The notes beneath the pieces are model-generated. The model ran no database searches, was not told where the DNA came from, and saw only the letters and a program-made list of their open reading frames with translations. Below are positions 59,830 to 64,000 of a stretch of DNA of 64,000 nucleotides, piece after piece (the stretch's first letter is position 1; each line of letters opens with the position of its first letter). The stretch spans positions 62,001 through 126,000 of the forward strand of contig DUNG01000005.1 in NCBI GenBank assembly GCA_012839475.1, read 5' to 3'. A program made the position numbers and the translations under genes. This DNA is from Petrimonas sp. GTDB lineage: Bacteria > Bacteroidota > Bacteroidia > Bacteroidales > Dysgonomonadaceae.

Positions 59830-59860
59830 TTTGTAAGTTCCCTTTTTCATGTTTACTTTG
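59830..59860 (+). promoter_or_regulatory. Promoter of the leucine operon leader
   Basis: TTTG (59830-59833) - 20 nt - TACTTTG (59854-59860). Confidence 0.65.
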
Positions 59861-59890
59861 TATCCGCTCAATATAGGTAAAGTATATACA

Positions 59891-59956
59891 ATGTACAACA
59901 ACATCGCTATTCTAGTCGTCTCCATTATTCTCCTTTTGCATGTCATCGGGGGGTGA
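59891..59956 (+). CDS. Branched-chain amino acid leader peptide (21 aa) of the leucine operon
   Basis: atg...tga translates to MYNNIAILVVSIILLLHVIGG: 12 of 21 residues are Ile/Leu/Val; upstream of a terminator preceding leuA. Confidence 0.8.
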   Translation: MYNNIAILVVSIILLLHVIGG

Positions 59957-59995
59957 GACAGGAATATCGTTGGATGAACGAAAAAATATAAGGAT

Positions 59996-60026
59996 AACCT
60001 TTCTCACCCGGTGGGAAAGGTTTTTT
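59996..60026 (+). terminator. Attenuator terminator upstream of leuA
   Basis: AACCTTTCTCACCCGGTGGGAAAGGTT (one T-G wobble) followed by TTTTTT; 5' arm can instead pair with 59951-59958. Confidence 0.85.
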
Positions 60027-60063
60027 CATTTTAACGGGGATGCTTAATTTTTAAAGTAACAGT

Positions 60064-61551
60064 ATGGAGCGCATATATGTTTTTGATACCACGTTGAGGG
60101 ATGGGGAGCAGGTGCCCGGCTGCCAGTTGAACACTATCGAGAAGATACAGATCGCGCAGTCGCTTGAATCGCTCGGCGTGGACGTGATCGAGGCCGGCTT
60201 CCCGGTTTCGAGCCCGGGAGACTTCCAGTCTGTCGTGGAGATCTCTAAGGCGGTCACCTGGCCCACCATCTGCGCGCTCACCCGGGCGGTGAAGAAGGAT
60301 ATCGAGGTGGCGGCCGAGTCGCTTCAATACGCAAAGCGTAAACGCATTCACACGGGGATTGGAACTTCCGACTTCCATATTCGCCACAAGTTCAATTCCA
60401 ACCGTGAGGAGATACTGGAACGGGCGGTGAAGGCGGTAAGGTACGCGAGGCGATTCGTGGATGACGTGCAGTTTTACGCCGAAGATGCCGGCCGTACCGA
60501 TAACGAGTACCTGGCACGGGTGGTGCAGGCGGTAATTGATGCCGGCGCCACGGTCGTGAATATTCCCGATACTACCGGCTACTGCTTTCCCGACGAGTAC
60601 GGTGCGAAGATAAAGTACCTGATCGACAACGTGGATATGAAGCAGGCGATCCTGGCGACCCACTGTCATCAAGACCTGGGCATGGCCACGGCCAACACCA
60701 TCGTAGGTGTGTTGAATGGGGCGCGGCAGGTAGAGGTGACCGTGAACGGTATCGGCGAACGTGCCGGGAACACTTCGTTAGAGGAGGTGGTGATGGCCTT
60801 CAAAAGCCATAAGGAGAGAGGATTCGATACCAATATCAACACGCAGTACATATACGGCATTAGTCGACAAGTATCGAGCTTGATGAACATGCCAGTGCAA
60901 CCCAACAAGGCCATCGTGGGAAGGAACGCCTTCGCGCACTCCTCCGGGATTCACCAGGACGGGGTTCTCAAGAACGTGGAGACCTACGAGATTATCGATC
61001 CGAAAGAGGTGGGCATTGACGACAACGCGATCCTCCTCACCGCACGTAGCGGTCGAGCGGCGCTCAAGAACAGACTCGCTATACTGGGTGTGAAGCTGAG
61101 CGACGAGGAGCTGGATAAGGTGTACCAGAACTTCTTGAACCTGGCCGATAAAAAGAAAAATATCCGGGATGAGGACTTGCTGATGTTGGTCGGCAGGGAG
61201 TCCAGTAAAGCCCGTATCAAGGTGGAGTACCTGCAAGTGGTATGTGGTATCGGGGTGCGCGATGTAGCCAGCATCGGGCTCAATATCGCCGGGGAGCAGT
61301 TTGAAGCCACGGCAACCGGCAATGGTCCGGTTGATGCGGCCATCCGGGCGGTGAAGAACATCATTAAACGGAAGATGAAGATACAGGAGTTCCTGATACA
61401 AGCCATGGACCATGGAAGCGACGACGTTGGCAAGGTGCATATGCAGGTGGAACATAATAACAAGCACTATTACGGCTTCGCGGCCAATACCGATATTATC
61501 GCGGCCTCGGTGGAGGCGTTTATCGATGCGGTCAACAAGTTCGTGGAATAA
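60064..61551 (+). CDS. leuA: 2-isopropylmalate synthase
   Basis: [76 protein letters not shown]. Confidence 0.96.
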
Positions 61552-61657: not shown

Positions 61658-63040
61658 ATGAAGACGCTTTTCGATAAGATATGGGATGCGCACGTGGTGA
61701 CCACGGTTAAGGATGGTCCCACGCAGTTGTACATCGACCGTCACTTCTGTCACGAGGTGACTAGCCCCCAGGCTTTCTCGGGCCTTCGGGCAAGGGGGTT
61801 GAAGGTTTTGCGACCGGAACGTACCACGCTCACGGCCGACCACAATATTCCCACCATGGGGCAGGACAAGCCTATTCGCGACGATACCTCCCGTTTTCAG
61901 GTGGAGACGCTCGAGAAGAACGCCCGTGATTTCGGGTTAACCTATTACGGGCTGAACCACCCCAAGAATGGGATCGTGCACGTGATTGGCCCCGAGAACG
62001 GCTATACCCAACCGGGAATGACCATCGTGTGTGGCGACAGCCATACCTCCACGCACGGCGCGTTTGGTGCCATCGCCTTCGGGATTGGTACCAGCGAGGT
62101 GGAGATGGTGCTGGCCTCGCAGTGTGTTTTACAGTCACGCCCCAAGACGATGCGGATCCACTTCGAGGGGCGACTGGCGGAGAACGTGGGTGCTAAGGAT
62201 ATGGCCCTCTACATGATATCGAAAATGACCACCGGAGGGGCTACCGGATACTTCGTGGAGTATGCCGGCGAAGCGGTGCGTAACCTCACCATGGAGCAGC
62301 GGATGACCCTCTGTAACCTGAGCATCGAGATGGGTGCCCGGGGTGGGATGGTTGCGCCGGACGAGACCACCTTTGCCTACCTCAAGGGGCGTGAGTTTGC
62401 ACCCAAGGGGGAACGGTGGGAGGAGGCATTGGCCTATTGGAAGACCCTCAAGAGCGACGATGGCGCACGGTTCGACAAAGAGATCACCTTCAACGCGGCC
62501 GAAATCCGACCGATGATCACCTACGGGACCAACCCCGGTATGGCAATACCAGTCGATGGCTCGATCCCTACATTGGACGAGATCGAGGAGGCAGGAAGGG
62601 GCTCCTTCAGGCGGTCGCTCCACTACATGGGCTTTGCCCCGGGTGAGAAGCTGGTGGGAAAACCCATCGACTACGTCTTCCTGGGTAGCTGCACCAACGG
62701 CCGGATAGAGGACTTCCAGGTTTTTGCCAACTACGTGAAGGGCAAGAGGAAGGCCGATAATGTAACGGCCTGGCTGGTGCCCGGCAGTTGGCAGGTACGC
62801 GAGCAGATCGAGGAGGAGGGATTGGACGAGATATTGAGAGAGGCCGGGTTCGAGTTGCGTCAACCGGGCTGCTCCGCATGCCTCGCGATGAACGAGGATA
62901 AGGTGCCGGCGGGCAAGTACGCGGTCTCCACATCGAACCGCAACTTCGAAGGGCGACAGGGGCCGGGATCCCGTACCATCCTGGCGGGGCCGCTGGTGGC
63001 GGCCGCGGCGGCGGTGAGCGGGAAGATCACGGTGCCGTGA
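61658..63040 (+). CDS. leuC: 3-isopropylmalate dehydratase large subunit
   Basis: [57 protein letters not shown]. Confidence 0.98.
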
Positions 63041-63069: not shown

Positions 63070-63666
63070 ATGGAGAAGTTTACAACCATAACATCAACCT
63101 GTGTGCCACTGCCTATTGAGAACGTGGACACCGATCAGATCATACCGGCCCGGTTCCTGAAGGCAACTACCCGTGAAGGGTTTGGTGATAACCTGTTCGC
63201 CGACTGGCGGTACGACAAGGCGGGGAACCCCAAGGGTGACTTCGTGCTGAACAATCCCACCTACAAGGGGGAGGTGCTGGTCGCCGGGAAAAACTTTGGT
63301 AGCGGGAGTAGCCGCGAGCACGCGGCGTGGGCTATCGGGGGGTATGGCTTCAAGGTGGTGGTTTCCAGCTTTTTCGCCGACATCTTTCGCCACAACGCGC
63401 TCAATAACGGTATTCTGCCGGTGGCGGTGAGCGAAGAGTTTCTGGGTGAGCTATTCGTTTCGGTGAAGGGGAATTCCAAGGCTACCGTCACCGTGAACCT
63501 TCAAGAGCAAACCATCACCAACAACGAGACCGGGAAGTCGGAGTCGTTTAACATCAACGCTTACAAGAAGGAGTGCCTGTTGAACGGGCTGGATGATATC
63601 GATTTCCTGCTCTCTAACAGGGATAAGATTGAAGCGTTCGAGAAGCAGCGTGTTTATTCATATTAA
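63070..63666 (+). CDS. leuD: 3-isopropylmalate dehydratase small subunit
   Basis: VPLPIENVDTDQIIPARFLK; GKNFGSGSSREHAAWAI; ATG at 63070 preferred over ORF-track start 63037. Confidence 0.97.
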   Translation: MEKFTTITSTCVPLPIENVDTDQIIPARFLKATTREGFGDNLFADWRYDKAGNPKGDFVLNNPTYKGEVLVAGKNFGSGSSREHAAWAIGGYGFKVVVSSFFADIFRHNALNNGILPVAVSEEFLGELFVSVKGNSKATVTVNLQEQTITNNETGKSESFNINAYKKECLLNGLDDIDFLLSNRDKIEAFEKQRVYSY

Positions 63667-63675
63667 TAGATTGTT

Positions 63676-64000
63676 TTGGAAAAGGTAAGGAAAATAGAGA
63701 TCATGGATACCACGCTACGCGACGGGGAGCAAACCTCCGGCGTGTCGTTTGTCGCCCAGGAGAAGCTGAGCGTGGTGCGCCTCCTGATTGAAGAACTTAA
63801 GGTGGATAGGGTGGAGATCGCCTCGGCACATGTGTCGGAAGGGGAGTTTCGCTCCGTCCAGAGGATGACACGGTGGGCTAAGGAACATGGCCATATCGAT
63901 AAGTTGGAGGTGTTGGGATTCGTGGACGGTACCGCCTCGCTGGAGTGGATAGCGAGTGCGGGTTGCCGGGTGATAAATCTGTTGACGAAAGGATCGCTGA
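63676..64000 (+). CDS. Second 2-isopropylmalate synthase-like (LeuA/citramalate synthase family) protein, truncated by window end
   Basis: From a TTG at 63676: [62 protein letters not shown], open to the window end; syntenic with leuACD. Confidence 0.85.
   Translation, partial: MEKVRKIEIMDTTLRDGEQTSGVSFVAQEKLSVVRLLIEELKVDRVEIASAHVSEGEFRSVQRMTRWAKEHGHIDKLEVLGFVDGTASLEWIASAGCRVINLLTKGSL

Follow-up and report, generated by a model that had tools for sequence, protein, structure and literature searches.

Comparative evidence for a probable leader-peptide transcription attenuator upstream of the leu-ilv operon in Bacteroidales

The region upstream of leuA in the window (the whole stretch of 64,000 nucleotides analysed here) very probably carries a ribosome-mediated (leader-peptide) transcription attenuator that controls the leu-ilv operon, and this leader switch very likely activates the operon under shortage of Ile, Leu or Val. 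Several hallmarks of an attenuator were present, namely an ORF made of pathway codons, a terminator before leuA, and a covarying antiterminator that is mutually exclusive with it. This reading is supported by the downstream genes, which make exactly Leu, Ile and Val, and also by conservation, covariation, spacing, codon bias, the promoter, the modelled states of the RNA and similar leaders found before ilvD.

All elements of the leader lie on the plus strand. A Bacteroidetes-type promoter motif TTTG-N20-TACTTTG was located at 59830-59860 (TTTG at 59830-59833, a 20-nt spacer, and TACTTTG at 59854-59860), and it is followed by a leader peptide ORF of 21 codons, MYNNIAILVVSIILLLHVIGG, which runs from the ATG at 59891 to the TGA at 59956 and contains five Ile, four Leu and three Val residues. 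A further in-frame ATG, upstream at 59849, was discounted as a start codon because it sits within the promoter. The predicted stall site is the Ile-Ile-Leu-Leu-Leu codon run at 59924-59938, whose spacing to the antiterminator is constant in relatives. The 5' strand of the antiterminator, GGGTGAGA (59951-59958), overlaps the leader stop codon and is the exact complement of the 3' strand, TCTCACCC (60002-60009), which lies within the 5' arm of the intrinsic terminator (59996-60026). The terminator stem is formed by 59996-60007 with 60011-60022 (12 pairs, a loop of 3), its T6 run occupies 60021-60026, and 37 nt separate the end of this run from the leuA start at 60064. The first-pass annotation had proposed the promoter, the 21-codon ORF, the two complementary 8-mers and the hairpin with T6 at these positions; all were correct to the base, and the perfect complementarity of the 8-mers was found again in the sequence.

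To judge how much of this could arise by chance, the 230 bp upstream of leuA were compared with 5000 dinucleotide shuffles. None of the shuffles produced an ORF in which 9 of 10 consecutive codons were for Ile, Leu or Val, and 10 of them produced one with at least 8 of 10. The terminator-like pattern alone was not above chance (1 found vs 2.0 expected in shuffles), and folding of the whole leader was not significantly better than that of shuffles (z = -1.08); the terminator segment itself folded better than shuffles (z = -2.56). The decisive evidence for the attenuator is conservation and covariation in relatives.

The genes behind the leader all run in one direction, in the order leuA-leuC-leuD-cimA-leuB-ilvD-ilvB-ilvN-ilvC. 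The first of these nine genes, leuA (60064-61551, plus strand), matched the NCBIfam model for 2-isopropylmalate synthase above its cut-off, and leuC (61658-63040, plus strand) and leuD (63070-63666, plus strand; matched on L120:4071-4667) were also above their NCBIfam cut-offs. Only the start of the cimA-like gene lies in the window (63676-64000, plus strand; L120:4677-6239), and leuB, ilvD, ilvB, ilvN and ilvC follow beyond it. The top NCBIfam match of the cimA-like gene was the Leptospira CimA model, below its curated cut-off, and its place in the run suggests that isoleucine may be made from pyruvate. Judging from gene order, the nine genes probably form one transcript. Genes of such a run supply leucine, isoleucine and valine, in keeping with the mixed Ile/Leu/Val codons of the leader.

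In the proposed mechanism, transcription would start near 59867, and the leader ORF would be translated while it emerges. When charged tRNAs for Ile, Leu and Val are ample, the ribosome would get to the stop codon and mask GGGTGAGA (59951-59958), so that the arm TTTCTCAC would be left free, the terminator hairpin (59996-60022) would form, and transcription would stop before leuA. If one such tRNA were uncharged, the ribosome would stall within the Ile/Leu/Val codons, and GGGTGAGA would pair with TCTCACCC (60002-60009) before the 3' arm of the terminator was made; with the antiterminator formed, the terminator would fail and the operon would be transcribed. We infer that leader translation, stalling, termination and the amino acid response take place in this way in the cell.

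Conservation was analysed at two levels, and the closer one was the genus (Proteiniphilum, order Bacteroidales, as indicated by named relatives; 35 loci examined). The leader ORF was present in all 35 loci, with its end about 106-120 nt before leuA, and the typical peptide was M....DILVISILLLE.F.G followed by the stop; in L019 the start was GTG. Leader and terminator were scored together in 34/35 loci, a score that rests on automatic ATG-ORF and terminator criteria. The stretch GATATTCTAGTCATTTCTATTCTACTTCTGGA...GGGTGAGACTGGCATATC was nearly invariant across the genus, silent positions too, and HVIGG before the leader stop distinguished the species of the window and its two closest relatives from the rest of the genus. 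The promoter, as TTTG-N18-21-TAn(n)TTTG, was found upstream of the leader in 30/34 genus loci, and the -7 element in 55/61 loci outside the genus vs 14% of shuffles. The genus leaders favoured codons that are uncommon in leuA: CTA made up 49% of their Leu codons (vs 3.5% in leuA), GTC 89% of their Val codons (vs 8%) and ATT 87% of their Ile codons (vs 30%).

A further pairing was seen at this level, between the Ile/Leu/Val codons and the sequence just after the stop. In the window it would join segment 1, in the leader codons (59906-59917, plus strand), to segment 2, just 3' of the leader stop (59957-59968, plus strand). In 34 genus sequences 90% of cells were paired, vs 24-50% when the partner was slid, and no compensatory change was found among these nearly invariant sequences; the pairing was weaker in the window's own species. 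We regard it as a candidate 1:2 (protector) helix conserved in the genus. The antiterminator and terminator pairings also hardly varied within the genus, so the covariation signal comes from other families.

At the wider level, we compared 177 different regions upstream of leuA, those of the genus among them: 83 contained an ORF in which no fewer than 8 of 10 codons were for Ile, Leu or Val, vs 0.5% of shuffles. Leader and terminator stood together before leuA in 40/65 named close loci and in 29/77 loci drawn evenly from the order, and the low share of the latter is partly due to relocation of the leader to ilvD. Among 18 sampled loci of the same class outside Bacteroidales, an Ile/Leu/Val ORF with terminator before leuA was found in none. 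Outside the genus the leaders were unrelated in peptide sequence, for example MNQAFIHILLCGIIILLAKFSGSEYCA and MKNTSIILASLIISLLILRC, with the layout kept. The mini-ORF, whose conservation in relatives the first-pass annotation had put forward as a check, is thus kept within the genus and also throughout the order, where its sequence is unrelated.

These data also bear on whether the ORF is instead the gene of a small, hydrophobic and functional membrane peptide, with the terminator behind it merely ending its transcript. Stretches rich in Ile, Leu and Val are typical of membrane segments, and the sequence is conserved within the genus, but across families both sequence and length vary while the position, the spacing from codon run to antiterminator and the pairings are kept. 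Moreover, the near-invariance in the genus extends to silent positions, rare codons are favoured, and hisG is preceded by leaders of the analogous kind that are His-rich and not hydrophobic. We consider a membrane peptide very improbable, and the attenuator remains our reading of the ORF.

Covariation was measured in an order-wide alignment of 56 sequences that was built without reference to structure. In this alignment 88% of antiterminator cells were paired, and 40 cells were double-changed vs 12.6 +/- 2.5 after shuffling and at most 18 with the partner slid. One antiterminator pair was A-U in 30 sequences and G-C in 15, and another was U-A in 48 and C-G in 5. For the terminator, 43 cells were double-changed vs 10.2 +/- 6.1 after shuffling. 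The rows are mutually related and were picked for having both leader and terminator, so the shuffle figures cannot be read as probabilities. Both of the pairings proposed earlier from the window alone therefore covary across the order.

The distance between the stall codons and the antiterminator was also conserved. In loci outside the genus, the Ile/Leu/Val run lay a nearly constant distance of about 21 nt from the 3' end of the antiterminator segment (the codon run being chosen with sight of that segment), and the leader stop codon followed the run at distances that varied between 3 and 39 nt. When the run was defined blind to the segment, the positions of run and antiterminator still correlated (r = 0.90, n = 41), and the spacing had an SD of 4.4 nt vs 13.3 nt with loci permuted, a permutation result that is optimistic because loci share ancestry. 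A constant distance from the stall codons is a requirement of a ribosome-stall switch.

Modelling of the window RNA gave the two states that such a switch would need. With the ribosome modelled at the last Leu codon, the antiterminator had a probability of 0.98 and the terminator 0.02; with the ribosome at the stop, the values were 0 and 0.91. In the finished RNA without a ribosome the terminator reached 0.91 at equilibrium, and with RNA polymerase at 60010 and no ribosome the antiterminator reached 0.99. The first-pass annotation had reasoned that a ribosome at the stop would allow termination and that a stalled one would leave the antiterminator free to form, and in the model these two positions do flip the window RNA between both hairpins. 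At equilibrium, switching was seen in only 9/34 genus loci and 5/69 other loci; in most relatives a stalled ribosome did not keep the finished terminator from winning, and the antiterminator therefore has to prevail by being formed earlier. When RNA polymerase was placed at the terminator loop, sequestration of the 5' arm reached 74% (genus) and 65% (others) with the ribosome stalled, and 20% and 12%, respectively, with it at the stop; with shuffled spacers the value was 52%, so in these models the mid-transcription margin over shuffled spacers is modest. Spacing and model together indicated that the distance of the regulatory codons fits a stalled ribosome exposing the antiterminator strand and a stop-positioned ribosome covering it.

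Part of the apparent absence of leuA leaders is accounted for by relocation to another first gene, ilvD. In eight leaderless order loci the end of ilvC was directly upstream of leuA. We inspected ilvD in 14 genomes that lack a leader before leuA (in nine of them ilvC lies upstream of leuA, and five are others), and an Ile/Leu/Val-rich ORF followed by a terminator stood before ilvD in 12 of the 14, which belong to other Bacteroidales families (L283-L296). These leaders, for example MNTTLIIIVVVIILILIRT and MTLFASLLLVVIIILVVNH, carry runs of Val and Ile; seven of the 12 reach 9 or 10 of 10 Ile/Leu/Val, and two are weak, with 6 or 7 of 10 and an unusual length. For comparison, 13% of shuffles reached 6 of 10 and none reached 9, these shuffles being of leuA and not of ilvD regions.

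Similar leaders were found before other amino acid operons by reading and a simple scan. Most readable genus loci had a hisG leader of the form MKAN.FHHHHFHTC.QA(R/S) followed by the stop, in which CAGGCG at the stop is complementary to CGTCTG in the terminator arm. In one instance, the His leader MKANGFHHHHFHTCNQAR and a terminator lie upstream of hisG at about 3650-3706 of L121, minus strand (G000:C59). Apart from this, the hisG frames of two distant Bacteroidales genomes (L230, G053:C67:11878-12690) were interrupted by stops, with 1 TGA in one and 1 TGA plus 3 TAA in the other. Genus relatives also had a Thr/Met-rich ORF (...TTTTMTMTP...) before thrA. The thrA leader MQGFYFMHLCATATMTMTPWGG was read at L122:1063-1131 (G000:C30), where TTGGGGGGGTTA at the stop could pair with the downstream TAACCTTTTCAA; no clear U-tract terminator was found in the thrA leader region of the window's genome. 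For trpE (PF04715) and pheA (PF00800) there was no match in that genome.

The match between codons and pathways argues against an attenuator that mainly reports general translation speed, as under antibiotics or broad starvation, and not specific charging of branched-chain tRNAs. Rare codons slow ribosomes generally, which would suit such a sensor, but codon identity matches the pathway before the leu/ilv and his operons and partly before the thr operon, and the ilvD leaders carry Val and Ile runs; we therefore give a general sensor very little credence against one of specific tRNA charging. On balance, it seems probable, though well short of certain, that leader-peptide attenuation is a general control of amino acid operons in Bacteroidales (leu/ilv, his and possibly thrA), unrelated in sequence to the proteobacterial systems, and that the leu/ilv leader stands before leuA or ilvD according to which gene comes first.

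A riboswitch or T-box that directly senses a ligand or tRNA, with the ORF incidental, would likewise place two competing hairpins before a biosynthetic operon, and T-boxes, riboswitches or the LEU element do serve other leu/ilv operons (PMC2494555, PMC10272879, PMC1262725). However, neither the T-box covariance model nor any other Rfam family matched the window at gathering score, and the region had only chance-level Rfam matches; what is conserved is an ORF whose codons match the amino acids and lie at a fixed distance from the antiterminator. Direct sensing is accordingly highly unlikely, and we retain the leader-peptide attenuator.

Bacteroidales are a dominant gut lineage, and a strongly supported attenuator would show how they sense branched-chain amino acids. 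Mutations that probe the leader switch would be simple to test, and covariation together with the leuA-to-ilvD relocation offers a model for the annotation of similar leaders, which gene callers may overlook given their small size. No prior description of this Bacteroidales leader family was found in the open papers that were searched, only general hints. The works of Vitreschak 2004 and Lopatovskaya 2010 may include Bacteroidota predictions, and the former reportedly mentions Bacteroidetes/Chlorobi.

Among known systems, the enterobacterial leuL and ilvL leaders are alike in having a short ORF with pathway codon runs, an antiterminator and terminator that exclude each other, and the same amino acids, and leuL also uses rare CUA codons. 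Unlike them, the Bacteroidales element is unrelated in sequence, has a single leader for a merged leu-ilv run and, in the window, has an antiterminator strand that overlaps the leader stop codon. The enterobacterial type of logic with unrelated sequence, which the first-pass annotation had suggested, was supported: the attenuator layout was found, none of the Rfam enterobacterial leader families matched the window at gathering score, and none was among the region matches up to E = 5. The uORF attenuator of Corynebacterium ilvB-II (PMC10272879) is alike in its uORF rich in branched-chain amino acids, its terminator stem with U-tract, its antiterminator and its branched-chain amino acid operon, but it belongs to another phylum, gene and RNA, and its case includes reporter data where ours is built from sequence. 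The actinobacterial LEU element (PMC1262725), compared by description, is a conserved pseudoknot upstream of leuA, whereas here there are a leader ORF and two competing hairpins. Naville and Gautheret (2010) knew of no leader-peptide system outside Proteobacteria and Actinobacteria and reported a Firmicutes one (PMC2965389); this histidine leader before hisS/hisZ is another case of leader-peptide attenuation from outside Proteobacteria, for which that paper suggested a convergent origin, but with a different amino acid, gene and phylum. In the same order as the window's genome, the Bacteroides thetaiotaomicron transcriptome revealed short ORFs in long 5' UTRs that are reminiscent of leader peptides (PMC7366714), but the example given is BT_4401, the main text does not name leuA, and no mechanism was established. 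Compared with these systems, the type of mechanism proposed here is classical, and the putative leader family, which has no Rfam match, is well supported by comparative evidence.
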